Shown in pieces: positions 775 through 63,812 of a stretch of DNA of 64,000 nt. The stretch covers positions 1 to 64,000 of the IMG/VR virus record IMGVR_UViG_3300023117_002343; one strand, 5' to 3'. Below the pieces are notes generated by a model that was not told the DNA's origin, made no database searches, and worked only from the letters and a program-made list of their open reading frames with translations. The translations under genes were made by a program, and so were the position numbers. The stretch's first letter is position 1. Every line of letters begins with the position of its first letter. Source of the DNA: a virus.

Positions 775-1509
775 TTAGCTATGCCCCTTTCTTTCCGAAT
801 AGGCCTTAACCGCCTCCGGATAAAGATCGTTGACCATTTCTAACATTCCTTTTGCGAGTTGTTGAATTTCCCACTGCGCGCCATCATGAGTACGCAGATC
901 AATAAATTTCAAGATGTTGTTGAGATTTGCACTAGCATAATATTCGGTCAAGAGGTTTTGCGGTAGAACACCTCTGGCCTGCTCGCGACACACGCCTGCA
1001 GCCAACATTGCATCAAATAGCTTAAGCGCGTCAGAGTGAAATCTCTTCATCATTTGGGCGGCACTTCCCTTATAATAGCCTTTAATCTCTCCAGTACCCA
1101 CTCGAATTTCAATTTCGGGATTGATTGAATCAACATTGGATGCCTGCCGATTGGACTTGTGCTGCGTTCGAAAATCTTCTGGCTCGTAAAATTCCAGATT
1201 GAAATCGGTGTAGCGACGACTGATTTCGTTGTAGCTCCACGTGCGATGCCTGTGGTGTTGCGATCTAACAAACAGAGGCACCTTACATCTGAAAGTTACG
1301 TGGCAGTGCTCGAGCGTCGACGTGTGTCTATGATCGATCAGATATTTGATGAGCTTCTTATCTTTCTTGTCCAGCTCTGTTTTGTGCTTTCCAAAGCTGA
1401 CTCGAGCAGCATTGACAATGGTGAGATCGTCTCCCATGTGCTGCACGTATTCGACAAAACACTTGCTGTGACCGTACAGATCGATCTTTTTCTGGTAATC
1501 ATTTTTCAC
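775..1509 (-). CDS. thyX: Flavin-dependent thymidylate synthase ThyX
   Basis: Makes dTMP from dUMP using methylene-tetrahydrofolate and FAD/NADPH. The ThyX signature RHRTWSYNEISRRY (RHR-x7-S) is present at about residues 87-100. The C-terminal dUMP/FAD segment NLNNILKFIDLR followed by AQWEIQQLA is also canonical. About 244 residues, normal for the family. The frame is open to a TTG at 1533, but the GTG at 1509 is preferred: it follows an AAGG and overlaps the end of the glutamine synthetase gene by 11 bases. Sits downstream of glnA and a Nudix gene, probably one operon. All signature residues are intact, unlike the ThyX-like paralogue at 55689-56612. Confidence 0.95.
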   Translation of the reverse strand: MKNDYQKKIDLYGHSKCFVEYVQHMGDDLTIVNAARVSFGKHKTELDKKDKKLIKYLIDHRHTSTLEHCHVTFRCKVPLFVRSQHHRHRTWSYNEISRRYTDFNLEFYEPEDFRTQHKSNRQASNVDSINPEIEIRVGTGEIKGYYKGSAAQMMKRFHSDALKLFDAMLAAGVCREQARGVLPQNLLTEYYASANLNNILKFIDLRTHDGAQWEIQQLAKGMLEMVNDLYPEAVKAYSERKGHS

Positions 1510-2536
1510 GATTGCAAACCTTGACAGCTTCAACGATTAAGTTGGCGACCTTATAAGGATCGCAGTTTGATGCTGGTCGACGATCTTCAAGATAACCTGT
1601 CCACTTTTTGGCAGTATCAGCCGGCACCCGAATTGATGCACCGCGATCGGCCACGCCCCAACTAAATCTCGAAATGTGCTGCGTTTCGTGCAGGCCTGTC
1701 AGCCGCTGATCATTATCTTCCCCATAAGCATCGACGTGTTCAAAATGCCGATTTTCTAGCGACTTGAGAACCTGCTTGAAGTGTTTTTCGTTGCCGGCTC
1801 GCATAATGCCGTTGGAAAAATTGGTGTGACAGCCAGAACCGTTCCAGTCGCCTTTGACCGGCTTGGGCCTGATATCGGCATCCAGTCCGTGTGACTCTGC
1901 AATACGATAAAGCAGATATCTGCTGATCCAAAGATCGTCACATGCTTTGAGTGTGTCATCTCCAAAACACTGAAACTCCCACTGGCCCACGGCAACCTCG
2001 GCATTGATGCCTGTCAGCTCTATACCCATCTCGAGACATTTGTGCAGATGTTCCTCTACAACCTTACGACCTTTGACCTGATTGCCACCAACACCGCAGT
2101 AATAGAGGCCTTGCGGACCTGGATAGCCTCCCTCAGGAAAACCAAGCGGCTTGCGATCTTTGGTCAGAAAATATTCCTGCTCAAATCCCCACCAAAATGC
2201 TTGACCATCGGCAAAATCCTGATTCTCACGCAGCTTAGCACGATAGTTGGATTCATGAGGAGTACCGTCCGGATTAAAGACTTCGCATAGCACAATCAAG
2301 TGTGTATTGGTCTTGTCGTAAGGGTAGTATCGAACCGGCTTTAGAATTCTTTCGGAATTATCTCCAGGAGCCTGACGCGTAGAGGAGCCATCAAAGTTCC
2401 AGTCAGGTGCGGTGCCATTCCATCCGCCCGTGGGCTTTCCACTGTCTTTGTGGGCATTTATTACTTTAATTTTGCTGCGCAAATTGGGCGTCTTGTACCC
2501 ATCTAACCAAACATATTCAAGCAGAACCTTGTTCAC
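1499..2536 (-). CDS. glnA: Glutamine synthetase, eukaryotic-type GSII
   Basis: 345 residues. Catalyses ATP-dependent amidation of glutamate to glutamine. GSII landmarks occur in order: WNFDGSS at 46-52, GFEQEYFL at 117-124, NAEVAVGQWEFQ at 178-189, NGSGCHTNF at 232-240, the HETQHISRFSWGVADRG active-site run near 283-299, and YLEDRRPASNCDPY at 315-328. The length fits GSII (about 340-370) rather than bacterial GSI (about 470), and the adenylylation-loop Tyr region of GSI is absent. The acidic metal ligands and the HETQH segment are retained, so it looks active. It lies between Nudix and ThyX genes, so it is embedded in the phage operon, not a host flank. Glutamine is the amide donor for purines, CTP and amino sugars. 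Confidence 0.93.
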   Translation of the reverse strand: MNKVLLEYVWLDGYKTPNLRSKIKVINAHKDSGKPTGGWNGTAPDWNFDGSSTRQAPGDNSERILKPVRYYPYDKTNTHLIVLCEVFNPDGTPHESNYRAKLRENQDFADGQAFWWGFEQEYFLTKDRKPLGFPEGGYPGPQGLYYCGVGGNQVKGRKVVEEHLHKCLEMGIELTGINAEVAVGQWEFQCFGDDTLKACDDLWISRYLLYRIAESHGLDADIRPKPVKGDWNGSGCHTNFSNGIMRAGNEKHFKQVLKSLENRHFEHVDAYGEDNDQRLTGLHETQHISRFSWGVADRGASIRVPADTAKKWTGYLEDRRPASNCDPYKVANLIVEAVKVCNREK

Positions 2537-13000: not shown

Positions 13001-13003
13001 TTC

Positions 13004-14202: not shown

Positions 14203-14208
14203 TTTTAA

Positions 14209-14805: not shown

Positions 14806-14806
14806 A

Positions 14807-15013
14807 TCAATCTAACTCGTCATTTTCGAAAATATTAGGATCAATGACAAAATCGTTTTCGTGCACTTTATACATGTTTGCAATTCGACTTTGATGCAAG
14901 TTCTTTTTAGTGATCAGATTCAAGTCATTGATCAGTATTATTTGCTGCGCTAATTTTGCGGTCAGCACCTGAATGTCGTCCTCGACAGAATCAATTGTAA
15001 TTACTTTGCCCAT
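14807..15013 (-). CDS. Hypothetical small helical protein
   Basis: 68 residues. Contains a likely amphipathic helix DDIQVLTAKLAQQIILINDL and an acidic end PNIFENDELD. Lies between the 113-residue gene and the paralogue array with 1-6 base spacings, so it is cotranscribed. No family recognised. Confidence 0.55.
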   Translation of the reverse strand: MGKVITIDSVEDDIQVLTAKLAQQIILINDLNLITKKNLHQSRIANMYKVHENDFVIDPNIFENDELD

Positions 15014-15018
15014 TTCGT

Positions 15019-15360
15019 TTATCTCTTTGCAACTAAGTATATTGACAGCGTGCCTCGATCCGTAATGTCCAAGGAAACACGCAAAAATTTGCCTGTAAAG
15101 ACAGTGCGCTCCAAAGTGAAAGCGCTATTGGAAGGGGTGACAAGTATAGAACCATTTTCCATATCATCGTAGTTAGTTCCGTCGTTTGACTGTTGTAGCG
15201 TAACTTCGGTGTCGCCTTGAATACTTGAGCCGACAAATTGGACCGAAATCCTATTGTAATCGGAAATGTCAGAGGATGTAAAGGTGGTTGGACCGACGGT
15301 GAGATCATAGGACGTCGCCAGGGTTTCCTCAAATGCAAGAAGTTCGGGTATGTATGCCAT
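15019..15360 (-). CDS. Hypothetical beta-sandwich virion protein
   Basis: 113 residues. The pattern ISVQFVGSSIQGDTEVTLQQ, SNDGTNYDDM, then KFLRVSLDITDRGTLSIYLV resembles a small discoidin-like beta-sandwich domain seen in phage tail accessory proteins (comparing a measured deviation, SNDGTNY). It is placed directly downstream of the giant fiber gene, 5 bases away. Likely a fiber-associated subunit; low functional certainty. Confidence 0.6.
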   Translation of the reverse strand: MAYIPELLAFEETLATSYDLTVGPTTFTSSDISDYNRISVQFVGSSIQGDTEVTLQQSNDGTNYDDMENGSILVTPSNSAFTLERTVFTGKFLRVSLDITDRGTLSIYLVAKR

Positions 15361-15365
15361 AATGT

Positions 15366-24177: not shown

Positions 24178-24824
24178 TCTATCACACCTCCTAGCATTCG
24201 AGATTTGCCGCCACCCATCGGATCTGGCTTGTAAGAATAGTTATCGCCGCCAGAGTGCACAATAATGGACCTGCCTCTTACGTCTTCTAGAGTTAGCCTA
24301 GGCGCCAAAAGAATGGCGTCGATTGTGCCATCTTCGAGTGCATAAGCTCGAGGCAGATCGCCCAAGTGTCCATCGCCATAAGGTCCCAGATGCTTGCCTG
24401 TTCCCATTGGATCATAGTGTCCTCCGGCAGCCATTCCAGGCTGGATCTTGCCGTCTTTTTTTCCCGGGCCCACATCTGGATTTTCATGGATGTGAATGCC
24501 ATGTTCGCCCGGTGGTACTCCTTCAGCCTTCAGTTTCACTATGAGACCTAGGTCGGTCTGTTCAAACTGAGCCGAGCCGACAGCTTCTCCCACTCCATCT
24601 TTTGTCAGTCGTCGCAAAATTGCCATGGCATCCACAAAATCGCCCTCTTCAGACTGCTCAAAGAGATGACCGTAGGACTCCCGAATCAATCCCATTTTTT
24701 TGTAGTAGTCACTGATCTTCTGAAGATATTCGGGCTCCCACTCGTTTTCGTTGCCGATTCGATCTAGAAAGAGACTGCTGGACGTGGCATCGTCGTAAGT
24801 CTGACCCGACTTTCTTTTTTTCAT
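24174..24824 (-). CDS. sodC: Cu/Zn superoxide dismutase with N-terminal extension
   Basis: 216 residues. The dismutase domain begins near residue 75. Copper ligands H111, H113, H136, H190 and zinc ligands H136, H145, H153, D156 are all present (HGIHIHE, AAGGHYDP, KHLGP, GHLGDLP, IIVHSGGDN), as is the guiding Arg (R209). Both disulfide cysteines of bacterial SodC are lost (Val118 and Gly212 in their places) and there is no signal peptide. The protein therefore seems made for a reducing compartment or the virion interior, unlike periplasmic SodC. The N-terminal 70 residues are unrelated to SOD and end GHLFEQSEE. Would convert superoxide to peroxide and oxygen. Confidence 0.92.
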   Translation of the reverse strand: MKKRKSGQTYDDATSSSLFLDRIGNENEWEPEYLQKISDYYKKMGLIRESYGHLFEQSEEGDFVDAMAILRRLTKDGVGEAVGSAQFEQTDLGLIVKLKAEGVPPGEHGIHIHENPDVGPGKKDGKIQPGMAAGGHYDPMGTGKHLGPYGDGHLGDLPRAYALEDGTIDAILLAPRLTLEDVRGRSIIVHSGGDNYSYKPDPMGGGKSRMLGGVIE

Positions 24825-48214: not shown

Positions 48215-48646
48215 TCAGTCTGAAGAATCTAATGACACTTTTCGAACCTGTCGTTTGGCTCTTGCAAGCATGTCCAAACCCGAAGTATCTCGATAGGTCT
48301 CACAGTAGACGAGCTCGTCTATGCCGGCATTGATAATGGCCTTAGCACACATTTTGCACGGAGACAAGGTGACATACATTCGCTTTCTTTGCGGATTGTT
48401 ATAGTCCATCTTGATCAGGGCATTGACCTCTGCGTGAATGCATCCACTCTGGCCGGGCTCTGCAGACTCAACTTCATTGGGTCCGCCGGCTTGATCACCA
48501 TTGTATCCCATAGCCAAGACCTGAGTGTTATCATTGGAAACCACCACAGCTCCAACTTTGTGTCTCTGGTCAATGCTTCTCTCGGCAATAGACTGGGCAA
48601 AGCGCATCCAGATAGTGTCCCAATCGGGTCTTTTATTTATTCCCAT
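48215..48646 (-). CDS. dcd: Deoxycytidylate deaminase
   Basis: 143 residues from ATG at 48646. Deaminates dCMP to dUMP, the substrate of ThyX. Zinc-site motifs: HAEVNAL (His ligand and catalytic Glu) and PCKMCAKAI (two Cys ligands). GYNGDQAGGPNEVE and the C-terminal ETYRDTSGLDMLARA fit the phage dCMP deaminase family. Overlaps the DHH gene by ten bases. Works with thymidine kinase and ThyX to raise the dTTP supply. The symbol is a family label; strict dCMP specificity is not proven. Confidence 0.92.
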   Translation of the reverse strand: MGINKRPDWDTIWMRFAQSIAERSIDQRHKVGAVVVSNDNTQVLAMGYNGDQAGGPNEVESAEPGQSGCIHAEVNALIKMDYNNPQRKRMYVTLSPCKMCAKAIINAGIDELVYCETYRDTSGLDMLARAKRQVRKVSLDSSD

Positions 48647-49482
48647 GGCCAAAACAACTTTTCTACGCTTTCTGATGGTCCCAAAGTAAACCCAGCAGCT
48701 TTTTTATGTCCACCGCCGCCAAAGCGCGCAGCAATTTTTGATACATCGACTTCGTTCTTTTGGGTTCTTAGGCTGACTTTATGCTTCATATTTTTGTGAT
48801 CGTAGTACCAAATAACAACGAAATCACAAGTAGGAGCCAATTGAGATCCAATTTCGCTTTGTAAGATTGAGCTATTTACCACGCAAACTTCATAGCTTCT
48901 CCATAAATTTTTTCGAGCACTTTGGCATATTTTCTTCATAACAATATTATTATAATGAAGAATAGTATAACCATCGCTCACAAGCTCCTCGAACTGCGAG
49001 AGATTATTCATGGCATCAAACGACTCAAAAGTAAAGTCGATCAATGAGGTTAGCGCGGCAGACACAGCTTTACTGTCTTCCAGCTCAAAACGCCATAGGT
49101 CTCTGTCCTCAATATAACGCAAAAAAATCGGAGGATCTTCAGAGCCATGAAAGAATTGCCAGGACAATATTGCGCCACTTCTACTCATGTCTAATTGAGC
49201 TTCAGGGATGCCGGCTAAATTTTCTTGGGCAGTTTTATGATGATCTAACACAATCAAAGAATTAGCTTTTTCTATCATTTTCTTAATATCATAACGCGAA
49301 TAAGAAAAATCCAGAATGGCTACATTTTTACCTGTAACATTTGGTATCGGATCGCCATAGGATGCCGGCAAATACTGAGCTCGATCGCCCAGAAGCTTCC
49401 AAGCGGCCCAAGCTGCACCGAATCCATCAGGACAATTTGCGTGATAAATAACTAGGTCGACGTCTTGCGGATTGGGTCTCAT
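48637..49482 (-). CDS. DHH-family phosphoesterase
   Basis: 281 residues. DHH-family motifs: HANCPDGFGAAWAAW near the N-terminus, AILDFSY and VLDHHKTA in the middle, and the DHHA1 glycine motif GGGGHKKAAGF near the C-terminus. These enzymes hydrolyse short oligonucleotides or cyclic dinucleotides. Two metal-binding centres appear intact. It could degrade nanoRNA from host decay or a cyclic-nucleotide defence signal; both are inference. In the nucleotide block beside dCMP deaminase and thymidine kinase. Confidence 0.88.
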   Translation of the reverse strand: MRPNPQDVDLVIYHANCPDGFGAAWAAWKLLGDRAQYLPASYGDPIPNVTGKNVAILDFSYSRYDIKKMIEKANSLIVLDHHKTAQENLAGIPEAQLDMSRSGAILSWQFFHGSEDPPIFLRYIEDRDLWRFELEDSKAVSAALTSLIDFTFESFDAMNNLSQFEELVSDGYTILHYNNIVMKKICQSARKNLWRSYEVCVVNSSILQSEIGSQLAPTCDFVVIWYYDHKNMKHKVSLRTQKNEVDVSKIAARFGGGGHKKAAGFTLGPSESVEKLFWPWE

Positions 49483-50026: not shown

Positions 50027-51056
50027 CACTTTCCTTTTGTGATTTTTTAGGCGTCAGTTCCCACCAGGCCAAAGTGGATTCCAGGCCAGTTTCAAAATCA
50101 GTCTGTGGCTTCCAGCTGGTCTCTTCTGTGATGGCCTCAATACTTGCCTTGGTGTGCTTGACATCGCCAGGTCTTTCAGGCGCATGTGTAATTTCAATGT
50201 CACCAAATCGATCTTTGAGCATTTGAAGGATCTGATTGTTAGACAGACTCTTGCCGTAGCCCACATTGTAGGCCGCAAAGTCGCCTGTGTCTTCTGATGC
50301 CACTGTCACCAGAGCGTTAACCACATCGCCTACGTAAACCATGTCTCTTGTCTGCTCACCGTCGCCATCAGAGCGCAGAGGTTGATTCTGTTTGAGCTTA
50401 TCGCACCAGGCTGCTACGGCTGTAGCGTAGGGATTATTGCCATAACAGCCCGGACCGTACACGTTAAAAAATCTCAGTGCTGCACTTTTGAGTCCGTAGA
50501 GATCAGCAAACTGTTTTAAAAACATTTCAGAGCACAGTTTTTGTAGGCCATATGGGCTTCTGGGCTCTTTGTGAAAACTTTCTTCTGTGGCTATTTCGTC
50601 TGGATGTGACGTAAAAGAGCCGTAAATTGCAGAAGAAGAAGCAAAGACGAACTTTTCAACTCCACTTTTTACAGCCATCTCTGCTAGGGCCACCGTCTTA
50701 AAGAGGTTGGTGTCGGTGGAGACAGTGGGATTTTCGACTGAGTACTCAACGCGTGGATTGGCTGCAAGATGAAAGACGTGTGTATATCCTCCCTGCATGA
50801 TGTGCTTAATAACGTCGGGATCTGACATGTCAGCTGTGATGACCAGAGTCTGATCGCTGCCCAGATTTTCGCGCGCAAAAAGTATGTCGACCAATCCTGG
50901 TAAGACCGTTCGAGGCACCACGTCTTTTTCTATCAGGTTCTGAAGATAGCCTGAGCTCAAGTCATCAATAACTGTAACCTTCCAGCCTTCTTCCAATAGT
51001 TTTTTCACTAGGTGTGATCCAATAAAACCGCAACCCCCTGTCACTAGTGCTTTCAT
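50016..51056 (-). CDS. NAD-dependent sugar epimerase/dehydratase (extended SDR)
   Basis: 346 residues. Nucleotide-sugar epimerase of the UDP-glucose 4-epimerase type. The Rossmann motif GGCGFIG is at 7-13, SSSAIYG and EPRSPYGLQK hold the catalytic Ser/Thr and YxxxK (Y-G-L-Q-K), and LRFFNVYGPG follows. All residues for NAD-dependent sugar oxidation are visible. In phages this is likely for sugar precursor supply: glycosylated DNA bases, virion glycans or host surface change. No glycosyltransferase is present in the window to decide which. Confidence 0.85.
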   Translation of the reverse strand: MKALVTGGCGFIGSHLVKKLLEEGWKVTVIDDLSSGYLQNLIEKDVVPRTVLPGLVDILFARENLGSDQTLVITADMSDPDVIKHIMQGGYTHVFHLAANPRVEYSVENPTVSTDTNLFKTVALAEMAVKSGVEKFVFASSSAIYGSFTSHPDEIATEESFHKEPRSPYGLQKLCSEMFLKQFADLYGLKSAALRFFNVYGPGCYGNNPYATAVAAWCDKLKQNQPLRSDGDGEQTRDMVYVGDVVNALVTVASEDTGDFAAYNVGYGKSLSNNQILQMLKDRFGDIEITHAPERPGDVKHTKASIEAITEETSWKPQTDFETGLESTLAWWELTPKKSQKESDEK

Positions 51057-54000
51057 TAAGCAATTCTCCTTAGTTTTGTCACTGAGGTAGAGAAACCCCA
51101 GTTTGAATCATTTGATGCATGTGCCATCCAAAGTGAAAATCTTTCAGGCGGAACATTGTTTTCAAACTTACCCCATACACGTAACCAAGTCGCATTATGT
51201 TCATTGTCAATTGCCCGAATCCGATAAAACGTTTTTCCATTTTTCGTTTTCTTTTGGATTACATCTTGCACACAAAACCAACCAATACCTGCGGTTCCTG
51301 ATTGTATTTTATGCAAGGAACTCACATTTTTCTCACCAAGTCTGTTCATTAGCTTGCTTGAGAAAAGTAGTTCCGGATCAACTGATGACGTTAGATCAAA
51401 TTGTAAATTTATTTTTTGAGTTCGAGTCCAATCTTCCAAATTGGCATATTTTTGTAATAACACATCTACAATTGGTTCAGGTTCTATTTCTTCTTTTGCC
51501 AATTTCTTAAGCTGTGTAGTGGTCTTTCCATATCGACCTTTTTTCAAAAGAACATAGTTGTTTTCATCAGTAAATGTATACAACAGCTGATTATAGTTGA
51601 TGTCACTTTGTTCAAAATCTTTAAGTGATGAAAGGGCTTCAATTTTGCACAGGGCTGATAGACATGTCTTGTTAATTTTAGACAATCTCCACTTGCCGTC
51701 TTCATTATAAAGAAAATCATCAATGCTGGCAAATGGGCGTAAATTCAAGATTTCATCTACGGCAGTCGCACCAATGCCTTTGACAGATGCAAGTGAAGGC
51801 ACAAAAGCATCAATATCATCTGAAAATGCCCACTCTTTTTCGGAGTAATTAACATCAATTTGAGCAAATTCATAGCCCATTTTACGAATTTCGTTAATGA
51901 CTTTTGTGAGTTTTTCCTGACTTCCACTCTCAGCCTGCAACACAGTGGACAACCAGTGTTTAGGATAATACGTTGACAACCAGGCACCGTAATAAGATAC
52001 GATTGCATAAGAAACAGCATGGCTCAAGTTAAAACCGTAAAGCGAGAAAAAAGCAATCTTGTCAAAAAGCTCTTGCGCTTTTCTTCTTTCCAGCCCGCTA
52101 ACACTGACACAGCCCTCAACGAACTTCTTTTCCAGCTCTTCCTTTTCTTTAGCTTTCTTTCCTAGTGATGTCAGGTCTTTCTTCACAAGAGTTTTTCGCA
52201 TCTTGTCCGAATCACCAGGTGAAAATCCTGCCAATTGCTGAGCCAAAAGCATGAATTGTTCCTGGAATGCGATAAAGCCGTATGTGGATCCCAGTACATT
52301 CTTGATTGCAGGATGATCGTATTTAATATTTTCTGCATCACGCTTAGCTTTTACGTACAACTTGTGAACGTTAGCCTTGAGTGGCCCGGGCCGATAGATG
52401 GCTGTAATTGCCGCGAGGTCAGTAATGTTATCAGGTTGTGCCTCCAAGCAGAACTTTCGAGCACCAGGTGATGTAAACTGAAAAATGCCAGGCCAGTTAC
52501 CGCCTTTGAAAACGTGATCAAAAACTTTTGAATCGCTTGGCTCAACATAACGACAATTTAGTTTTTCATCATAGAACTTTTTGATTTCTTCAAACTGCGG
52601 TTCTTTGGAATTTTGACTCTTAAGAATGCGACGAATACAATCTTCGACCATCTTCATTTGAGACAGTCCTAAAAAGTCAAACTTTAGAAAACCATTCTCT
52701 TCAAGGTTTCGGATGTTGACGCCCTCGGTCCAAGGTGTCTGTAGTTCACCACGAACCTTAATGAGCGGCATATGCTTTTCAAGCTCAGGACAGATAAGCA
52801 CACCACCCGCATGTCGACCAATCGATCGATTCATCATGAAAAGCTTTTTAACCTTATCCTCAACCTGAGGATATTTTTCCATGAAGTTTTGATAGCGTTC
52901 TGAATACTTCATGCAATCTTCATGCTTCAGGACAAACATTGATTTTTCCATGTTTGGATCCTGTGCCCGGATTGAAACCTCGGCCTCCAGCGGACCCGTC
53001 ACCGCATTTACCTCACTAAAGGGAATTTGATATAACTTGCTAATGTCCTTTACCAGGGATTTGAGCTTTAAGGTGTTGAAGTTGGAAACCGGAACCACAG
53101 CATCCTCACCAAAAATTTCCCTAGCGGCATTGATTAGCTCATCACGATCACCAACATCAGTATCGATGTCGGGCCACGATGCCTTTTGCTTATTGAGAAA
53201 TCTCTCAAACAGAAGGCCGTACTTAACGGGATCAACGTGTGTAATGCCTAGCAGATAGTTGACAAGGCTACCGGCGCCGGAACCTCGACCGGCACCTGGA
53301 AGAGTTCGATTTTCGGCAAGCTTAAAAACCTTCTGAAGGGTCAAGAAGTAATCCGAAAAATTCAAGTACTTAATATCGCCAAGCTCCATCTTGGCTCGTT
53401 CAACATACTCAGGTTTTTCATGCAGTCCTTCGGCAACCAAACCGTCCTTGACCAATTGCGACAACTGTTGAAACGCGGTTTTCTTTTCATTGGTAAATCT
53501 TGGAAGTTTTGCAGTCGTATCAAACCAAACTTCATTACAAAGCTGCCAAGCAATATCATGACCGGTTTCGATTGACCGCCTGACAAGGTCTTCGGTTCCT
53601 TCGTACCAAGAAAATTCCTGCCGACGAAGAAGATACTCATCCCACATTTGTACTGCATTTTTTGGATACAGCTTTGCCTTTAGTTCATGTTCTAGCGGAA
53701 CTTTTGGACCAGTGCCATCATCCTTAATGCGACCAGGCATTAATAGACGATAAACCTCACGTGCCTCCCATAGATCTGGCCCTGGAAAGTGTGAATCTGC
53801 TGTGGCCACCATTGGAATGCCTGTTTTCTTTGAGGTCTCAATGATGACTCGGTTAGTAAGATCCTGCGCGTTCATTGCATGAAACTGTGTTTCTAAAAAA
53901 AAGTTCTCACGTCCCACAGCATCAATAAACATGTCACAGGCGTTTTCAATCTTACCAACGCACTTTGACATGATTGCAGGATCATCAACCAACGATGGGT

Positions 54001-54616
54001 GTAGTTGGTCAAATTTGAGACCAACAAATTCATCGTAAATGAGACCTGATGGGTATCCCCCCACGCATGCCGTTGATACAGCTAAGCCTTCGCCGTGTTG
54101 CTTAAGCATCTCAAAATCAATACGAGGAAAACGGAAAAAACCCTCAGCAAAGGAGCGTTTTACCAATGTAAAAAGATTTGCTAGGCCTACTTCATTTTTT
54201 GCAATAACGACAAGGTGATACCTTCTATTGACATTGCTAACGGCAGCCTTGGTTCGTGTTTCATCTGCGTCTTCCAAAACCAACCCAGCGTCTTTATCAC
54301 TTACACCTTTTTTGCTTTTGGCATCTTTTGACTCGGTGTATGCTATGCGCCAGTCCTTTAGTGAAGGCACAAAGTAAAATTCAACGCCATAAATCTGTCG
54401 AAACTTTCTACCCTTTCCGGATAGCTTTTTCATGTGTGCATGAGCATGTGCCAAACCGTTACCGTTACCATGATCAGTCAGAGTCCAGCCATCCAGCTGA
54501 TTCTTCAAGCAAAATTCAATATGCTCATGTGGTTGACCTAGGCCATCATAAGGAGAAAAAGTTGAATGACCATGAATAGAAACGAAACGATCAGGTGGAC
54601 GTAAAATATGACTCAT
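51056..54616 (-). CDS. dnaE: DNA polymerase III alpha-type (family C) replicative polymerase
   Basis: 1186 residues from the ATG at 54616 after AAGGA. Order: a PHP domain with SIHGHSTFSPYDG at 13-25 and TDHGNGNG; the palm with GRGSGAGSLVNYLLG and WPDIDTDVGDRDEL (catalytic aspartates), FDFLGLSQ later (third Asp); a fingers region with the TAIYRPGP motif and GFIAFQEQFM; a tandem HhH region (VKGIGATAVDEIL); and an OB-fold tail. No inteins or breaks. PHP metal residues seem present, so a proofreading-like activity is possible. Most T4-like phages use a family B polymerase instead. It has its own promoter at 54648. Confidence 0.95.
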   Translation of the reverse strand: MSHILRPPDRFVSIHGHSTFSPYDGLGQPHEHIEFCLKNQLDGWTLTDHGNGNGLAHAHAHMKKLSGKGRKFRQIYGVEFYFVPSLKDWRIAYTESKDAKSKKGVSDKDAGLVLEDADETRTKAAVSNVNRRYHLVVIAKNEVGLANLFTLVKRSFAEGFFRFPRIDFEMLKQHGEGLAVSTACVGGYPSGLIYDEFVGLKFDQLHPSLVDDPAIMSKCVGKIENACDMFIDAVGRENFFLETQFHAMNAQDLTNRVIIETSKKTGIPMVATADSHFPGPDLWEAREVYRLLMPGRIKDDGTGPKVPLEHELKAKLYPKNAVQMWDEYLLRRQEFSWYEGTEDLVRRSIETGHDIAWQLCNEVWFDTTAKLPRFTNEKKTAFQQLSQLVKDGLVAEGLHEKPEYVERAKMELGDIKYLNFSDYFLTLQKVFKLAENRTLPGAGRGSGAGSLVNYLLGITHVDPVKYGLLFERFLNKQKASWPDIDTDVGDRDELINAAREIFGEDAVVPVSNFNTLKLKSLVKDISKLYQIPFSEVNAVTGPLEAEVSIRAQDPNMEKSMFVLKHEDCMKYSERYQNFMEKYPQVEDKVKKLFMMNRSIGRHAGGVLICPELEKHMPLIKVRGELQTPWTEGVNIRNLEENGFLKFDFLGLSQMKMVEDCIRRILKSQNSKEPQFEEIKKFYDEKLNCRYVEPSDSKVFDHVFKGGNWPGIFQFTSPGARKFCLEAQPDNITDLAAITAIYRPGPLKANVHKLYVKAKRDAENIKYDHPAIKNVLGSTYGFIAFQEQFMLLAQQLAGFSPGDSDKMRKTLVKKDLTSLGKKAKEKEELEKKFVEGCVSVSGLERRKAQELFDKIAFFSLYGFNLSHAVSYAIVSYYGAWLSTYYPKHWLSTVLQAESGSQEKLTKVINEIRKMGYEFAQIDVNYSEKEWAFSDDIDAFVPSLASVKGIGATAVDEILNLRPFASIDDFLYNEDGKWRLSKINKTCLSALCKIEALSSLKDFEQSDINYNQLLYTFTDENNYVLLKKGRYGKTTTQLKKLAKEEIEPEPIVDVLLQKYANLEDWTRTQKINLQFDLTSSVDPELLFSSKLMNRLGEKNVSSLHKIQSGTAGIGWFCVQDVIQKKTKNGKTFYRIRAIDNEHNATWLRVWGKFENNVPPERFSLWMAHASNDSNWGFSTSVTKLRRIA

Positions 54617-54628
54617 GATATAATCCTT

Positions 54629-54669
54629 AAAAAAGTGTGCCTCCACAATTATATCATCATGGAGGCACA
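54629..54669 (-). terminator. Inverted repeat with T run overlapping the dnaE promoter
   Basis: Perfect 10-bp arms TGTGCCTCCA at 54636-54645 and TGGAGGCACA at 54660-54669 flank a 14-base loop. On the minus strand the stem is followed by C and six Ts (54634-54629), the shape of an intrinsic terminator for the gene at 54707-55165. The -10 of the dnaE promoter lies in the loop, so the same arms could be an operator. Both readings are open. Confidence 0.55.
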
Positions 54670-54676
54670 TTTACAC
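54648..54676 (-). promoter_or_regulatory. GTGTAA-type promoter of dnaE
   Basis: The minus strand reads GTGTAA (54676-54671), exactly 17 bases, TATAAT (54653-54648). Transcription would start near 54641, leaving a leader of about 25 bases to the ATG at 54616. It lies within the perfect 10-bp inverted repeat described separately. Confidence 0.65.
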
Positions 54677-54706: not shown

Positions 54707-55165
54707 TTACTCGATGCTGTCAGAGTAAGGCTCTAGGAGCATCTCACCGGCTTCATGACAACGATCCAAGTAATCTTCCAACTGCTCAAAAGTCGTGCAA
54801 ACCTTGACACCGCTTCTTGCCAGCATCAAATTGAATGGTGCTCCCTTTGGGAGACCCGCGCAAAAGTAAATAATGGCCTTATCAAATGCCGTGGCATAAC
54901 CGCATTCCATGATAGTGCCAAGATCTTTATCACGGGTATTGACAACCAAAAAGTCAGCTTCTCGAATGTGCTTTAGGTTTCCTTGGTAGGTCGCATCCTG
55001 CACATCTTTTGGCGCATTTGGTGGACATACAAAAATTCTACGTGGGGAAGCCAGCTCAACCCAAGAATCACGCTCATCCAAGATCTGCTCAAGGCGATCA
55101 AGTTCGGCGGCCTGCGTGGGGTTAAACCAGCCGGCTGCCAAATAACACTTCTTTCTATCACTCAT
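54707..55165 (-). CDS. Nucleoside 2-deoxyribosyltransferase-like protein
   Basis: 152 residues from the ATG at 55165 after GGAGA. KKCYLAAGWFNPTQAAELDR and DKDLGTIMECGYATAFDK match the family pattern (YLAGPxF near the start, DxGT-x-x-E-x-GYA in the middle, where the Glu is the nucleophile). FNLMLARSGVKVCTTFEQLE resembles the C-terminal NxML segment. These enzymes swap bases on deoxynucleosides or hydrolyse deoxynucleotides. Sits one base after a dNMP kinase and next to a ThyX-like gene. Confidence 0.75.
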   Translation of the reverse strand: MSDRKKCYLAAGWFNPTQAAELDRLEQILDERDSWVELASPRRIFVCPPNAPKDVQDATYQGNLKHIREADFLVVNTRDKDLGTIMECGYATAFDKAIIYFCAGLPKGAPFNLMLARSGVKVCTTFEQLEDYLDRCHEAGEMLLEPYSDSIE

Positions 55166-55166
55166 A

Positions 55167-55688
55167 TTATTTCTCCAAAAATTGCTTAATATCGGAAAGC
55201 TCTCTTTCCAGATTTTCGTCATCAACATTCATAACCAAAACATCACACTTTGACCACTCGGCAAACTCGAGATAGCGTTCATGAATTTTTTCAATATTAT
55301 CATTAATCGCCTCATATTCATCACTCGAGTTTTCGTAATTTGATCGTACCGGTATTATTATTTTTGTCCCTAATCGTGCATGGCGTGAATCCAGTTCTCG
55401 TAAAACTTCAAAATCCACTTTTCGACCAAGCACAGAACCGTAAATCCACTCGGACGGCCATGCACGATCTAGAATAACTGAGGCACCTGATTGCTCTAAA
55501 AATGAAGTAAAATAGGTGTCGACATATCTGACAGCATGCAAAAAATAAGAAGGATCCTGTAAAAAGTATCGATGCTCATCACAATTTTTGAAATACGGAA
55601 TTTCAAGCTCATTTGCAAGTGCCTGAGACATTTGTGTTTTTCCACAACCATCAGGTCCATCAAAAATAATCACATGCTGTTTTGTCAT
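55167..55688 (-). CDS. Deoxynucleotide kinase, thymidylate-kinase-like
   Basis: 173 residues. P-loop FDGPDGCGKTQMSQALA at 9-25 and a DR-x motif (VILDRAWPSEW) fit P-loop kinases of dTMP or deoxynucleoside type. The lid region is Arg-poor compared with host Tmk, so the substrate may be non-standard. Directly downstream of the ThyX-like gene and one base upstream of the deoxyribosyltransferase-like gene. Could phosphorylate the ThyX-like product. Confidence 0.8.
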   Translation of the reverse strand: MTKQHVIIFDGPDGCGKTQMSQALANELEIPYFKNCDEHRYFLQDPSYFLHAVRYVDTYFTSFLEQSGASVILDRAWPSEWIYGSVLGRKVDFEVLRELDSRHARLGTKIIIPVRSNYENSSDEYEAINDNIEKIHERYLEFAEWSKCDVLVMNVDDENLERELSDIKQFLEK

Positions 55689-56612
55689 TTACTTGAAGCC
55701 AACTTTTCGGAGTCGACCCTCATATCCAATAGTACGCCAATCCTTAATCATTTCCTTTTCACCTGAAAACAAAAGATTTTCAGGAAGTTCTTGTAACTCC
55801 AGATACCATGCCGACTTATCAAACTTCCAATCAGCAGGATTCTCATCATTAACCGATGACGGAATATGAGCACCAGCACTAGGAGCACGACCTGTATTAC
55901 CGAACACCTTGTCAACGTTCAGGCATACATTGTCATTTCCCATAGCGTCCAACTTCGTCATCAGGTGTGACCATCCGGACCCCTTAATCTTGTCGGTACC
56001 ATCCTCATTGAGATGAGCTCGACGAAGCTCACGATGAATCAGGCGACCAATATAGTTCAGCTCATCAGTCAGGCCATTCTCACAACGACGAGCAAAATAT
56101 CCTCGCAAGGCCATGAAATTTACAACACAAACCAAGTTTGTGTGCTGGCCATGTAGTGTCAGATAACGACAGTCTTGGGGAGGAACACCAGCATCGACCA
56201 TATCATCATACAATGACTGGGACATTTCCGCCAATTGATTAGCGCGGTCACCAAACTCAGATTGATAAATGTTCTTAGGAACTGTTACAGCATGCTCAAT
56301 TCTTTCAGGCATTTGTGAAGTTACCACATAAGCCCAACCAACACGACCTCGAGTAAACTGCGCCAAACCGACACGACTAATTCCCTCAATTCTAACTTGA
56401 AACTGAAGTGCTTCCTGCGGAATTGGAAGAGCACGCGCGGCAATTACATCCATTGCCGCCTGAATATGCTCAGGATTATCAGGATCATACTCGTCATTGC
56501 GAAGAGAATACCATGTCTCACGAAACCATTCCCAAAACATTTTGAATGGCATGGGGTTGCCCTGCTCAAGCAGAGTTACATTAATGTGTTGAAAACCGTT
56601 AAAAGTGCTCAT
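55689..56612 (-). CDS. Divergent ThyX-family protein
   Basis: 307 residues. SRVGLAQFTRGRVGWAYVV then TSQMPERI aligns with the ThyX segment around RHR-x7-S, but the motif reads RGR-x7-T: the His is Gly and the Ser is Thr. PPQDCRYLTLHGQHTNLVCV and NFMALRGYFARRC with LTDELNYIGRLIHREL match the C-terminal ThyX helices, with NxR replaced by NFM but the later Arg and Glu kept. The fold is clear, the reaction changed or lost. The canonical ThyX is separate at 775-1509. Lies beside a dNMP kinase, so a dUMP or dCMP modification such as hydroxymethylation is possible (inference). Confidence 0.7.
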   Translation of the reverse strand: MSTFNGFQHINVTLLEQGNPMPFKMFWEWFRETWYSLRNDEYDPDNPEHIQAAMDVIAARALPIPQEALQFQVRIEGISRVGLAQFTRGRVGWAYVVTSQMPERIEHAVTVPKNIYQSEFGDRANQLAEMSQSLYDDMVDAGVPPQDCRYLTLHGQHTNLVCVVNFMALRGYFARRCENGLTDELNYIGRLIHRELRRAHLNEDGTDKIKGSGWSHLMTKLDAMGNDNVCLNVDKVFGNTGRAPSAGAHIPSSVNDENPADWKFDKSAWYLELQELPENLLFSGEKEMIKDWRTIGYEGRLRKVGFK

Positions 56613-56654
56613 TTCTACTCCTTTGTGTGAGCCTCAGAATACCCTTGAATAATA

Positions 56655-56912
56655 TTACTGGGTGCGAAGATGTTCAATAAGTTTATCTGTCGCATTACGC
56701 AATCCACTACGATTAAATTCTGTGTCACCGATTTGCAACCAGATATCCTCAAGAAATGAATCCATTTCAACTCGATACTGTTGCATGTCTTCGTAGGAAA
56801 TTTTTGTCAATTCTGCGGTTGGATTATCAAGCAGTCTTAGTACTTGTCTCGATATTTTTGACGAGTGTTGTAATGTTGCCTGTCTCCCAGTCAAACATTT
56901 GAATACCTTCAT
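56655..56912 (-). CDS. Hypothetical small helical protein
   Basis: 85 residues if translation starts at the ATG at 56912 (AAGGAG nine bases upstream), which overlaps the MazG-HAD gene by 86 bases; other starts are possible. The non-overlapping part (ELTKISYEDMQQYRVEMDSF, LEDIWLQIGDTEFNRSGLRN) is helical and has no known domain. Start uncertain. Confidence 0.4.
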   Translation of the reverse strand: MKVFKCLTGRQATLQHSSKISRQVLRLLDNPTAELTKISYEDMQQYRVEMDSFLEDIWLQIGDTEFNRSGLRNATDKLIEHLRTQ

Positions 56913-57774
56913 AGCCCTTGACTCCTTGATTATATGAACGTGAGGGAACAAGACATGTTACACCATGCATCGCGTATTCTGCTGCATGTTTAGGTGAATC
57001 ATCAATAGCACAAACAACTTTACCTTGTTTGTATGCATCGAGTGAGGCCACGGCAATATACTTTTCTGAGCTCAGTTGAACCGAATCAAACTCACCCACA
57101 TAGGTTTCGAGCCATTCATAGGTTTCATTCATACACTTGAGCTCAGACGCAGGACGTGCCGTTAAAATGTGAATCCAGTAACCTTCATCTCGAAGGCGAC
57201 CTAGATTACTAACAACGTTTTGACATGTGTCAAGTTTTCTAACTTCTCCCGAATCGATAAACTCCTGCAATAGTTCATCGCCGGCTTTACCAGCAATCGG
57301 TTTGCTCAGAAAATACTCGGAAGAAGTATGATCGACATTTTCATCATAAGTTCGATTGACCCATTCATAAAAATTTTGCCTGAATCTCGCTAGAACATCA
57401 TCGACATCAACTACCACTACGGGTTGCCCTTGCCATTTTGACCAATTCTTCTTAGACCGAACATTTAGATGAGAGTCTCTAGACGCAAACGCCTGCAAGG
57501 CATCGTTCTCATCGTAACCCCATAGATTAAGAATCGCTAGACAATATCGATAAACGTCCATTGTTTCAAACAGAATATTCTGCCTGTGTGTAGGGGTAAA
57601 AGTCTGGCGATGACCCCTGTAGTCAACAGCATCAGCTAGTTTCGCCACTTCTCCATGCATTGCCAAACACAGTGTCTTGTGCTTTTCTATTTTTTCCAAC
57701 TCTGACATCTCAGCCGCATCATAGAAAATTCTGGCAAACTGTGCCTGTTTTTCCAAAAGTTCTTTCAATGTCAT
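56827..57774 (-). CDS. Fusion of MazG-like NTP pyrophosphatase and HAD phosphatase
   Basis: 315 residues. Residues 1-100 are an all-alpha MazG/dUTPase-like domain: CLAMHGEVAKLADAVDYRGH and ILFETMDVYRYCLAILNLWG give the metal-binding acidic helices. Residues 118-315 are a HAD domain of the 5'(3')-deoxyribonucleotidase type: VVVVDVDDVLARF (D123, D125 nucleophile pair), HILTARP (motif II) and VVCAIDDSPKHAAEYA (motif IV). The pair would turn dNTPs into nucleosides. In phages this often blocks incorporation of an unwanted base. Joined to the ThyX-like gene cluster. Confidence 0.8.
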   Translation of the reverse strand: MTLKELLEKQAQFARIFYDAAEMSELEKIEKHKTLCLAMHGEVAKLADAVDYRGHRQTFTPTHRQNILFETMDVYRYCLAILNLWGYDENDALQAFASRDSHLNVRSKKNWSKWQGQPVVVVDVDDVLARFRQNFYEWVNRTYDENVDHTSSEYFLSKPIAGKAGDELLQEFIDSGEVRKLDTCQNVVSNLGRLRDEGYWIHILTARPASELKCMNETYEWLETYVGEFDSVQLSSEKYIAVASLDAYKQGKVVCAIDDSPKHAAEYAMHGVTCLVPSRSYNQGVKGYEGIQMFDWETGNITTLVKNIETSTKTA

Positions 57775-57779
57775 ATCTT

Positions 57780-58004
57780 TTACTTTGGGTTGTTTACAAG
57801 ATAGCTGATGTGATCGAGAATTTCCTCGACCTGATCATCGCCACATTCCTTGTAGGATTGCCCCATTTTCTCCTTGACACTACGCCAAATATGCGCATAG
57901 GGATTTCTTGAGGAATGTTCTGGGTGAGGAGGTAAATTTCCATCCAGGGCTTTACCCCCTAGGGCAACGGCTTCACGAATTTTCTGCATATTTTCAGGCG
58001 ACAC
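57780..58004 (-). CDS. Hypothetical small protein
   Basis: 74 residues. MSPENMQKIREAVALGGKAL is helical, SSRNPYAHIWRSVKEKMGQS has an aromatic core, and a C-terminal helix follows. Five bases before the MazG-HAD gene and one base overlap with the dUTPase-like gene. No family recognised; the position suggests a role in nucleotide turnover. Confidence 0.55.
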   Translation of the reverse strand: MSPENMQKIREAVALGGKALDGNLPPHPEHSSRNPYAHIWRSVKEKMGQSYKECGDDQVEEILDHISYLVNNPK

Positions 58005-58369
58005 TAATAGCCTCCATTGATCCTGCCTAAGTTGACTTGACCCTTTTTCATGTAGGCTTCAAATATTTCTTCGACAGAAATACCTGAATAGATCAAAATC
58101 CCTACAAGGTAATGAAGTACATCGCTCAATTCTTCCATATAAGAATCACGATCAAAGTCTTTAAACTCTGTGGTTCGATGCTTTTTGGAATTCTTAAGCA
58201 GCATATTTGACTCAAAAAGCTCATGCATACATTCATGAGAAAGGTGCTTTAAAAACTGTTGGTTTTCCTTCTCAGCAAGATCTAAGGGGAAATCTGGATG
58301 ATCCCTTTTATCTCGTAAGAGCTCCAAGAAATCTTGTTGCTGTTTATACATTTGCTCAAATTTGTCCAC
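58004..58369 (-). CDS. All-alpha dUTPase/MazG-like protein
   Basis: 121 residues. HECMHELFESNMLLKNSKKH and SYMEELSDVLHYLVGILIYS carry the acidic metal-binding residues (E-x-x-E and E-x-x-D) of the all-alpha dUTPase/dCTPase family. KGQVNLGRINGGY at the end matches the C-terminal K-x-x-N-x-x-R-x-x-x-GY motif of phage dUTPases. Hydrolyses dUTP or related dNTPs, which would keep uracil out of DNA and feed dUMP to ThyX. Confidence 0.75.
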   Translation of the reverse strand: MDKFEQMYKQQQDFLELLRDKRDHPDFPLDLAEKENQQFLKHLSHECMHELFESNMLLKNSKKHRTTEFKDFDRDSYMEELSDVLHYLVGILIYSGISVEEIFEAYMKKGQVNLGRINGGY

Positions 58370-58371
58370 AA

Positions 58372-58572
58372 CTACTCTCCTGGTGCTACTTCATCTTGCA
58401 TTTTTACAAGGTTTTTTTCAAAGTTCTCGACGTAATCCGGATCCAAATCAAGAACGCCATCGTTCTCAACAAATTGAACCATGCGAATATTATCAGAAAT
58501 ATCGGTACCCGTCAAAATCGCAAGTTGCAAAAGCTTTACCAGTTGTGCAATACTATTATCAGAAAGTCTCAT
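58372..58572 (-). CDS. Conserved small phage protein
   Basis: 66 residues. MRLSDNSIAQLVKLLQLAIL with TGTDISDNIRMVQF is a compact helical protein of a type I recognise from marine phages (S-D-x-x-I-A-Q-L-V-x-L-L-Q-L-A), unnamed. Two bases upstream of the dUTPase-like gene. No function known. Confidence 0.6.
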   Translation of the reverse strand: MRLSDNSIAQLVKLLQLAILTGTDISDNIRMVQFVENDGVLDLDPDYVENFEKNLVKMQDEVAPGE

Positions 58573-58619
58573 ATTTTCCTCCAGGTTTGATTCAATTTTA
58601 TTAGTTTTATTGATTTTGT

Positions 58620-59417
58620 TCAGCGCTGAATTTGTGGAACCCAGTGCGTGGAACGGCCGTCTCCAGCATCCTCTTTAACCACTTCGTGGCCGTGAGGATC
58701 TGTCTTTCTTCCGTAAACCTGGAAGAAGTCTACCGCTTTGGCGTCTCCCTCAGGTGCACGATAATTCCTAATTGAAGCGCCTTGTCTTTCGTAACTTTCT
58801 TTAAGAACATTTTCTATGGCCTCCTTGAGGTTTTTCATGTCTTCTGTCGACAGAGATCCGACCAATCGGTACGGCGACAGTCGAGCTCGATATAGAGCTT
58901 CAGCTTTCACATAATTGCCAACACCGCATATAACACTCTGATCCATGATCGCTTTGGTCACGGTCCAGTGTTGCTTGACATCGAGTGCAGCATTAAACCT
59001 TTCACTCGACACATCTTCGCTCAGCATGTCTGGACCCAAACTGTTGAGCTTATCAAAAAATGCTTTTTTGGTCCGAATAACTTTCAGCGTGCCAAAATTT
59101 CTGATGTCAGAGAAGAATACTGGCGGGCCTGAGTCAAAATTAAACTTGACGCGATTGTGCTTGTTGCTCGAGTCAAGAGTCCAATGTCCAGTCATTCCCA
59201 GGGTATTCAACAGAAACTGGTCATTTTCCAGGATCCAAAATATGAGCTTGCCCTTGACGCCCACTCCAACAACTTTGGTCGGCTCAAACATTTCTATGCC
59301 TGTAATAGGCTTTTTGCAATATCTGCCAGAAATGGGCTGAATAGACAGGCATCTTCTAATACCAACCATTTGAGCCAATGACTCCCCAATCAGTTTTACT
59401 TCTGCTCCCTCTGGCAA
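58620..59417 (-). CDS. Fpg/Nei-family DNA glycosylase with degenerate zinc finger
   Basis: 265 residues. Base-excision glycosylase/lyase. MPEGAEVKLIGE provides the P2 and E3 active-site residues, LGMTGHWTLD the void-filling and damage-site loop, and a helix-2-turn-helix region with VICGVGNYVKAEALYRARL. The C-terminal zinc finger reads VYGRKTDPHGHEVV ... STHWVPQIQR: all four Cys are replaced, as in zincless Nei-like enzymes, with the catalytic-side Arg kept in RSTHW. Probably active on oxidised pyrimidines or purines. Follows the MazG gene. Confidence 0.85.
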   Translation of the reverse strand: MPEGAEVKLIGESLAQMVGIRRCLSIQPISGRYCKKPITGIEMFEPTKVVGVGVKGKLIFWILENDQFLLNTLGMTGHWTLDSSNKHNRVKFNFDSGPPVFFSDIRNFGTLKVIRTKKAFFDKLNSLGPDMLSEDVSSERFNAALDVKQHWTVTKAIMDQSVICGVGNYVKAEALYRARLSPYRLVGSLSTEDMKNLKEAIENVLKESYERQGASIRNYRAPEGDAKAVDFFQVYGRKTDPHGHEVVKEDAGDGRSTHWVPQIQR

Positions 59418-59419
59418 TT

Positions 59420-60007
59420 TTATTCCTCCCTGTTTACGCTTTTTTCAGTTTCAAATCCATTGGGGTATCTCTTGCGTAATTTTTCTACATTTACATGCAT
59501 TGCAATGGCCATTCCGCCTTCACGCCCAGACTGAATAGGACCGTGAATCTTTTTCAGAATATGCACGATATCTTTGATGACATTAGAAATACCATGACAA
59601 ATTAGAGCTGGATTAAGTTTATGTCCGTGACCTACAACTTTTTTGACATGCTCGGTTACTTCCTTGGCATTTCGGATGATCCTGAATTTTTTTCTGAAGG
59701 ATGCTGCGCAAGAATTGTTGTAATTGTCAATGTTGCCATAACTTTGCCACATGTGAAAAGGCACATCAAGCACATCCATGATTCGCGCAGCATACCATAG
59801 AACGTCACCAGCCTCTTTTGTCACTAAATCTATAGTATCAGCCAGGCTAATTTCGTTACGAGGATCGTAAATCTGGTCTACACAATCAATAAATTCCGCA
59901 CACTCGCCTATGAGGCCCAGAGCCAAAATGGCTAGATCGTCAGTAGCCGATGTTTCTCGGGTGATTTTTTGATATTCGTCGTAGGTGTATCTTTTAATGC
60001 CTGACAT
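59420..60007 (-). CDS. MazG-like nucleotide pyrophosphatase
   Basis: 195 residues. LALGLIGECAEFIDCVDQ and DLVTKEAGDVLWYAARIMDV hold the MazG acidic pairs (E-x2-E and E-x2-D). The spacing between the two helices is short (about 25 residues). A C-terminal helical part (SGREGGMAIAMHVNVEKLRK) ends the protein. Hydrolyses dNTPs or alarmones; in phages MazG has been proposed to alter (p)ppGpp. One of three such domains within 4 kb. Two bases separate it from the Fpg gene. Confidence 0.8.
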   Translation of the reverse strand: MSGIKRYTYDEYQKITRETSATDDLAILALGLIGECAEFIDCVDQIYDPRNEISLADTIDLVTKEAGDVLWYAARIMDVLDVPFHMWQSYGNIDNYNNSCAASFRKKFRIIRNAKEVTEHVKKVVGHGHKLNPALICHGISNVIKDIVHILKKIHGPIQSGREGGMAIAMHVNVEKLRKRYPNGFETEKSVNREE

Positions 60008-63248: not shown

Positions 63249-63812
63249 TTATGCTGCTTCTTTTTTCACATCTAACTGATCTACCCAATCATAAAAATTG
63301 GGATCAGTGGCCAGCCAAGACAGTTGGGATTGATCTACTCGCGCATAGGCCATATATTTTGAATTCAAGATAGAATCGGTCAGATTCGCTCTGTGCAGAT
63401 TCGCTCTGTACAGATTCGCATCGGTCAGATCCGCATTGGTCAGATTCGCATTGGTCAGATACGCAGCGGTCAGATTCGCACCGGACAGATTCGCATCGGT
63501 CAGATTCGCTTCGGTCAGATCCGCACCCCACAGATCCGCATTGGTCAGATTCGCTTCGGCCAGTTTCGCTTCTGTCAGATTCGCATCGGTCAGTTTCGCT
63601 TCGGTCAGATTCGCACCGGACAGATTCGCATCGGTCAGATTCGCAGCGGTCAGATTCGCACCGGACAGATTCGCATCGGTCAGATTCGCTTCGGTCAGAT
63701 CCGCACCCCACAGATCCGCATTGGTCAGATCTGCCTTTTTTCCTTTGTTGCCATTAGACTCTAGCCACAATTTGTGCTGCTTCAGAATGTGATTGAGTTC
63801 AGACTGTTTCAT
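63249..63812 (-). CDS. Pentapeptide-repeat protein, first copy
   Basis: 187 residues. Residues about 28-150 are A(D/N)Lxx repeats, with cores such as NLTDANLSGANLTAANL. Such proteins fold as a right-handed quadrilateral beta-helix, sometimes mimicking DNA; Qnr and MfpA bind gyrase this way. The tail NSKYMAYARVDQSQLSWLAT ends DPNFYDWVDQLDVKKEAA. The ATG overlaps the stop of the second copy upstream (ATGA). Next to the topoisomerase genes, so protection or modulation of the phage enzyme or inhibition of host gyrase is possible (inference). Confidence 0.9.
   Translation of the reverse strand: MKQSELNHILKQHKLWLESNGNKGKKADLTNADLWGADLTEANLTDANLSGANLTAANLTDANLSGANLTEAKLTDANLTEAKLAEANLTNADLWGADLTEANLTDANLSGANLTAAYLTNANLTNADLTDANLYRANLHRANLTDSILNSKYMAYARVDQSQLSWLATDPNFYDWVDQLDVKKEAA
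63462..63730. repeat. 89-base direct duplication within pentapeptide repeats
   Basis: Positions 63462-63550 and 63642-63730 are identical over 89 bases, with a 180-base offset equal to twelve pentapeptides. This suggests recent unequal crossing-over or slippage inside the gene. Flanking bases 63461/63641 and 63551/63731 differ, which marks the borders. Antisense reading of the same array gives long artificial frames. Confidence 0.85.

Follow-up and report, generated by a model that had tools for sequence, protein, structure and literature searches.

A divergent ThyX-fold protein and its companion kinase as a candidate route to a non-canonical pyrimidine deoxynucleotide in phages

The window analysed here consists of 64,000 bases out of a virus record of 75,693 bases (IMG/VR record IMGVR_UViG_3300023117_002343; the tail of the record is handled as L010). 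Besides a canonical thymidylate synthase of the ThyX type (ThyX1), it encodes a second, strongly divergent ThyX-fold protein of 307 residues, here called ThyX2. In the 14 full-length ThyX2 members, a set that includes the window and serves for all residue and kinase counts, the same catalytic positions are altered, and a gene for a thymidine monophosphate (dTMP) kinase-like protein always lies downstream. Judged from sequence and predicted structure, it is somewhat more probable than otherwise that ThyX2 is the founding enzyme of a pathway, specific to phages, that yields a non-canonical deoxypyrimidine nucleotide. The association of ThyX2 with the kinase, and the additional ordinary ThyX in many of the genomes, make it likely, though not proven, that this uncultured group of bacterial viruses produces an unusual DNA base via a route not yet described.

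Family, fold and active site of ThyX2

The preliminary description of this DNA had placed a second ThyX-fold protein at position 55689, an assignment now borne out by Pfam Thy1 (PF02511; E=9.8e-17, 61.8 bits against a gathering cut-off of 24.8) and by an AlphaFold model. The protein nevertheless stays below the cut-off of the NCBIfam thyX equivalog TIGR02170 (35 vs 87.9 bits), as does L011, a member of clade B of the family (50.3 bits). Its ATG is preceded by an AAGGAG ribosome-binding site. The model was built on 67 aligned sequences (predicted local distance difference test, pLDDT, 84.2; predicted template-modelling score, pTM, 0.86; residues 224-241 uncertain) and supersedes an earlier, poor one based on five sequences (pLDDT 40). 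In the comparison with ThyX structures that had been proposed, its best matches among solved structures are ThyX enzymes, Thermotoga ThyX (1o26) being matched with a VIA Z of 13.8 over 202 residues at 2.9 Å and 12% identity; a PDB profile search with ThyX2 alone returned repeat-protein noise only. An additional C-terminal segment of about 100 residues, with a conserved CLNxDKVFGNTGR motif, is absent from canonical ThyX and had gone unmentioned in the preliminary description.

The 14 full-length members form a single clade with 100% support in the Shimodaira-Hasegawa-like approximate likelihood ratio test (SH-aLRT), on a very long branch and with internal identities down to 55%. Scans of viral contigs yielded 16 contigs beyond the window's own record, one of which (L006) encodes a protein identical to that of the window, and a different portion of ThyX2, used in a further scan, recovered the same set. 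A pattern scan of genome contigs revealed no bacterial contig encoding ThyX2, and across the viral and genome contigs scanned the clade was seen in viral contigs only. The ratio of non-synonymous to synonymous substitution rates is about 0.05-0.16 for comparable pairs, which denotes strong purifying selection. ThyX2 is also the best conserved protein of its cluster, with mean identities, each on the same pairs, of 66% against 51% for the kinase, 69% against 59% for the deoxyribosyltransferase and 71% against 41% for the MazG-HAD fusion described below. Such selection, together with the highest conservation in the cluster, indicates that this is not a decaying gene.

Residues are given here in the numbering of Thermotoga maritima ThyX. 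The signature of ThyX2 is RGR-x8-S-Q-M-P in all 14 members, where close canonical ThyX have RHR-x8-S-Q-R-Y, and none of the 14 shows the RHR-x7/8-S followed by x-R-Y by which functional ThyX is recognised. The signature had initially been read as RGR-x7-T through a one-residue slip: aligned with the canonical phage enzymes of phi18-2, MMB025, SRB7757 and MTATph1, which carry the same one-residue insertion (RHR-x8-S), it becomes RGR-x8-S, and the catalytic Ser is therefore kept. Nine residues are retained throughout (E58, Q75, R78, R80, S88, R147, N163, R174 and E182), among them the later helix residues R147, N163, R174 and E182, rightly recognised before as conserved. Six positions have changed in every member, namely H53 to L, H59 to A/V, H79 to G, R90 to M, Y91 to P and Q180 to T; the H-x-S/T-x-x-E-H motif is thereby replaced by L-P-x-P-x-E-A/V, which had escaped the preliminary description. 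The replacement of NxR by NFM noted there holds for clade A, but clade B has N-x-A, and the position is weak evidence since some canonical ThyX also lack this Arg (NLT in phi18-2, NLN in ThyX1 of the window). The counterparts of Arg174, Arg147 and Arg78, which are R176, R149 and R88 in ThyX2 itself, are invariant across the 67 sequences.

In T. maritima ThyX, R174 activates deoxyuridine monophosphate (dUMP), R78 faces the reduced flavin and H53 stabilises the folate by stacking, while S88, R90 and Y91 help water to leave the flavin carbinolamine, a step slowed by the S88A, R90A and Y91A mutations (PMC8316439, PMC11940539). The phosphate-holding residues shown by PolB (PMC5003785) map to Q75, S88 and R147. 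From these mappings ThyX2 would seem capable of holding and activating a pyrimidine deoxynucleoside monophosphate (dNMP) beside reduced flavin, with the usual folate and acid side apparently lost, and the uniformity of the changes suggests altered chemistry and not loss of function. ThyX can use formaldehyde directly (PMC8316439), so one-carbon transfer is compatible with a missing folate-stacking His.

The kinase and the wider gene cluster

The start of the kinase gene abuts the stop of ThyX2 (TAAATG). A search for co-occurrence of the neighbours in other phages had been proposed; the kinase lies downstream of ThyX2 in 14/14 members, and the association is therefore more than chance, with the reservation that the phages counted are related, so that the co-occurrences are not independent of one another. 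Homing-endonuclease-like open reading frames (ORFs) separate the two genes in L007 (11005-11784) and in L017, and the pair is kept regardless. An ordinary ThyX accompanies ThyX2 in 7 of 16 records, the window among them, as had been stated for position 775. In two of the records (G007 and G009) it is directly followed by a canonical dTMP kinase, which gives two parallel ThyX-kinase pairs per phage; in the 15 records searched, no match to a ThyA-fold enzyme (PF00303) was obtained. Parallel pairs, an invariant second kinase and an altered active site together point to a second pyrimidine deoxynucleotide beside dTMP, and the pattern fits a dedicated supply of such a nucleotide.

Features of the window bearing on ThyX2 (positions in the window)
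Feature	Position	Strand	Evidence
ThyX1, canonical ThyX	775..1533	(-)	TIGR02170 171 bits (cut-off 87.9); Pfam Thy1 E=3e-48
dCMP-deaminase-like protein	48215..48652	(-)	HAE and PCxxC motifs in sequence; relatives in L004, L007
DnaE-type DNA polymerase III alpha, presumed user of the nucleotide	51056..54670	(-)	tblastn matches to DnaE polymerases of phages, lowest E 7e-111
Nucleoside 2-deoxyribosyltransferase-like protein (possible dNMP N-glycosidase), motif DxGTxxExG	54707..55165	(-)	PF05014 E=1.5e-13
dTMP-kinase-like P-loop kinase	55167..55688	(-)	phrog_761 thymidylate kinase E=1.7e-12; TIGR00041 29.1 bits, under cut-off
ThyX2, divergent ThyX-fold protein, 307 residues	55689..56612	(-)	Pfam Thy1; AlphaFold model; 14-member clade
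Extra C-terminal segment of ThyX2, residues 201-307	55692..56012	(-)	Alignments
Altered signature RGRVGWAYVVTSQMP, ThyX2 residues 88-102	56307..56351	(-)	Residue mapping; invariant columns in 67-sequence alignment
All-alpha NTP-pyrophosphohydrolase-like (MazG/dUTPase_2) domain fused to NT5C-type HAD phosphatase	56827..57774	(-)	PF06941 E=3.8e-8; PF08761 E=0.0067
Small conserved ORF, 74 residues	57780..58004	(-)	Relatives in 3 other loci
dUTPase_2/MazG-like all-alpha pyrophosphohydrolase	58004..58369	(-)	PF08761 E=2.5e-5; phrog_12184 E=9.9e-15
Small conserved ORF, 66 residues	58372..58572	(-)	7 loci
Fpg/Nei-family H2TH DNA glycosylase	58620..59417	(-)	PF06831 E=4e-18; TIGR00577 141 bits, under cut-off
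MazG-like pyrophosphohydrolase	59420..60007	(-)	phrog_229 E=1.8e-21

The other neighbours named before, namely a deoxyribosyltransferase, a MazG-HAD fusion, a dUTPase-like protein and a MazG, were likewise recovered with Pfam and PHROG, as was the kinase. The deoxyribosyltransferase needed a corrected start: it begins at about 55165, directly after the kinase, and the longer listed ORF overlaps the kinase. It is found in 13/15 records by Pfam counting, the fusion in 8/14 loci and the dUTPase/MazG-like protein in 9/14, and the DnaE polymerase gene adjoins the cluster in 9 loci. Searches of cultured phages with tblastn gave no match for the kinase or for the fusion. In L017 (12629-13771) and L019 (11766-12944) the deoxyribosyltransferase is, by reading, fused in frame behind a GIY-YIG-endonuclease-like domain, and an intein-like sequence (TYDLEVDHPDHQFYLANG...TSNS) interrupts the polymerase gene in L005 (about 12602-17428) and in L019 (about 12959-19500). 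Between the MazG-HAD fusion and ThyX2 lies an open stretch (56655-56826), possibly with a small gene in it; an 88-residue ORF is present at this place in L026. The Fpg/Nei-like glycosylase, missed previously, starts with MPEG, is present in 6/14 loci and could serve repair or base exclusion.

PyrK is the NAD-linked electron-transfer subunit of dihydroorotate dehydrogenase B. A PyrK-like protein, absent from the window, is encoded in 7/15 records and always adjoins the kinase; it resembles PyrK/FNR-type proteins in profile (1ep1_B, E=3.5e-5) and in its GPxGkGFP motif. These ORFs are compact (183-198 residues; L004 11456-12049, L002 11424-11975, L005 11438-12034, L007 12332-12901 and others), have no Pfam or PHROG assignment over cut-off and occur only in relatives of the window.

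Several further genes lie beside the subject. In three clade B loci (L011 5119-5496, L022 and L025) an S-adenosylmethionine decarboxylase two ORFs past the ThyX2 kinase hints at polyamine chemistry. An ORF of L005 (8758-9948) taken by eye for a glycosyltransferase has no Pfam or PHROG match. Elsewhere in the window there are two pentapeptide-repeat proteins in tandem, both with extended A-N-L-T/A-D-L runs (63249-63812 and 63809-64408, the second partly past the window, in L010), a Cu/Zn superoxide-dismutase-like protein (24174-24824; phrog_1975, E=4e-43) and an ORF recognised by eye only as glutamine-synthetase-like (1499-2536), a similar one lying just upstream of ThyX2 in L023.

Proposed function and rival readings

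In the pathway that we propose, ThyX2 would use reduced flavin to place a one-carbon unit (alternatively another aldehyde) on C5 of either dUMP or deoxycytidine monophosphate (dCMP) and would release a product other than dTMP. The ThyX route passes through an exocyclic-methylene pyrimidine that is normally reduced by flavin to dTMP, and the addition of water instead would give a 5-hydroxymethyl-dNMP. The most likely products would thus be 5-hydroxymethyl-dUMP or -dCMP, followed by 5-methyl-dCMP or another 5-alkyl-dUMP. The neighbouring kinase would take the modified monophosphate towards the triphosphate, committing it to DNA synthesis, the MazG/dUTPase-like and NT5C-like proteins and the deoxyribosyltransferase may keep competing nucleotides low, and the DnaE polymerase of the phage would incorporate the modified nucleotide, probably against host restriction. 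ThyX1 and the dCMP-deaminase-like gene fit either dUMP or dCMP as the substrate. A narrower formulation has ThyX2 as a modified-base ThyX-fold family that moves a flavin-carried carbon to C5 of dUMP or dCMP without the usual folate-stacking and general-acid residues, served by its own kinase and sometimes by its own PyrK-like reductase; this we regard as plausible, at slightly below even expectation.

Supposing a non-canonical product, hydroxymethylation is the leading candidate although it falls short of probable, another substituent comes close behind and dCMP methylation is the least expected. Hydroxymethylation would be redox-neutral and would need no dedicated reductase, and the PyrK-like gene therefore mildly favours a reductive product (5-methyl-dCMP or another 5-alkyl pyrimidine) or a slow re-reduction of the flavin. 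The loss of His53 and of R90/Y91, together with the PyrK-like gene in seven records, could also be explained if dCMP were methylated reductively or if another donor served for alkylation. Flavin-dependent methylation of dCMP to 5-methyl-dCMP, replacing cytosine as in XP-12, is one sub-case of the non-canonical pathway, its probability contained in that of the whole, and taken alone it is quite unlikely. It has in its favour that dTMP is already supplied by ThyX1, that the PyrK-like gene suggests net reduction and that XP-12 is listed with complete 5-methylcytosine replacement (PMC5977210), an analogue in product only; no residue, however, favours cytosine over uracil, and the absence of R90/Y91 and H53 suggests a change in the chemistry itself and not merely another choice of base.

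Several observations weigh against the proposed pathway. A canonical ThyX was not found in 9/16 records, mostly short fragments; no HMUDK_hel hypermodification kinase was detected in any record searched, and GT-1 glycosyltransferases appeared in one record only (G003). Several records are fragments, and absences accordingly count weakly. Genes for nucleoside 2-deoxyribosyltransferases, MazG and dUTPase-like proteins are also widespread among phages that have no modified base. The PyrK-like gene is missing from the window and from all clade B members, and is thus not essential, and hydroxymethylation would in any case not call for it. A rival reading takes ThyX2 for a highly divergent but ordinary thymidylate synthase with dTMP as its product and the kinase as its dTMP kinase: the fold is the same, R78, S88, R147 and R174 are kept, the kinase is dTMP-kinase-like and ThyX2 is the sole ThyX seen in several short records. 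We hold this to be unlikely, given that a canonical ThyX stands alongside in seven records, twice beside a canonical dTMP kinase, that ThyX2 misses the thyX equivalog cut-off and that it lacks R90 and Y91, two residues at which mutation makes the T. maritima ThyX step much slower (PMC8316439). That every member has lost several catalytic residues, and that ThyX2 is co-conserved with the kinase, would also suit a non-catalytic nucleotide- or flavin-binding regulator, such as a dUMP/dTMP sensor controlling the kinase, but nearly all flavin, phosphate and pyrimidine-activating residues are kept, no gene of the cluster is better conserved, and this role is the least probable of those considered.

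Should the non-canonical pathway prove true, the conserved ThyX2 clade and its kinase would constitute an independent, flavin-dependent way of obtaining modified DNA, and ThyX2 would be the first ThyX-fold modified-base enzyme demonstrated. The clade would help in deciding which phage genes encode thymidylate synthases and which encode synthases that modify bases, a distinction that the authors of the SP-15/PhiW-14 study noted to be hard from sequence (PMC5977210). As a natural experiment, it would also bear on which ThyX residues methyl transfer requires and which matter for substrate binding alone.

Comparison with known systems

Canonical ThyX (T. maritima TM0449 and the type of Bacillus phage phi18-2) shares with ThyX2 the fold and the nine kept residues, and the RHR-x8-S phage branch also the one-residue insertion; unlike ThyX2, it keeps H53, H59, H79, R90, Y91 and Q180 and lacks the C-terminal extension. 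PolB, a ThyX-fold UMP/dUMP C5-methylase of polyoxin biosynthesis (PMC5003785, 4p5b), also matches in fold and shows that ThyX-fold paralogues can accept another nucleotide, but it retains the phosphate-binding Arg (R98, equivalent to R90) and Tyr (Y99, equivalent to Y91) and works in antibiotic synthesis, away from any phage cluster that includes a kinase. Among predicted viral structures the nearest is A0A8S5SHX2 of Phage sp. ctqZP6 in BFVD (33% identity, template-modelling score 0.81, full length), annotated merely as a thymidylate synthase complementing protein and likely a deeper member of the ThyX2 family.

Bacillus phage SP-15 (KT624200), whose thymine is hypermodified, resembles the ThyX2 phages in having a second Thy1 protein, gp130, three genes from a deoxyribosyltransferase. 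Its two Thy1 proteins were read as a thymidylate synthase (gp9) and a hydroxymethyluridylate synthase (gp130) in a 2018 proposal without biochemical proof (PMC5977210). The idea of a ThyX-type modified-base synthase thus has a precedent, and the new route to a modified pyrimidine suggested in the preliminary description is not wholly new as an idea. The ThyX fold with altered catalytic residues, the invariant kinase, the NTP-pyrophosphohydrolase and nucleotidase partners and the ordinary ThyX in seven records fit a dedicated second pyrimidine nucleotide, for which hydroxymethylation is only one candidate reaction. Although gp130 is among the structure matches of ThyX2 in BFVD, close kinship was rejected: the ThyX2 profile scores it at 0.5 bits, and its segment order looks permuted by eye. 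No TMPK-like kinase is annotated beside gp130, and the deoxyribosyltransferases of SP-15 and of the ThyX2 clusters show no similarity past the catalytic motif. The ThyX2 family is separate from gp130, and no description of it was found in open-licence PMC papers.

To our knowledge, phage hydroxymethylases for dUMP and dCMP are all ThyA-fold. This is the case for the T4 dCMP hydroxymethylase, gp42 (PMC6400193), and gp42 and the SPO1-type hydroxymethylases (PF00303) thereby differ from ThyX2, which has the ThyX fold and falls outside that family. The T4-type module (gp42, dCTPase and dNMP kinase) nevertheless shares the logic of the ThyX2 cluster, in which a modifying synthase is combined with a pyrophosphohydrolase directed against the normal nucleotide and with a dedicated kinase.

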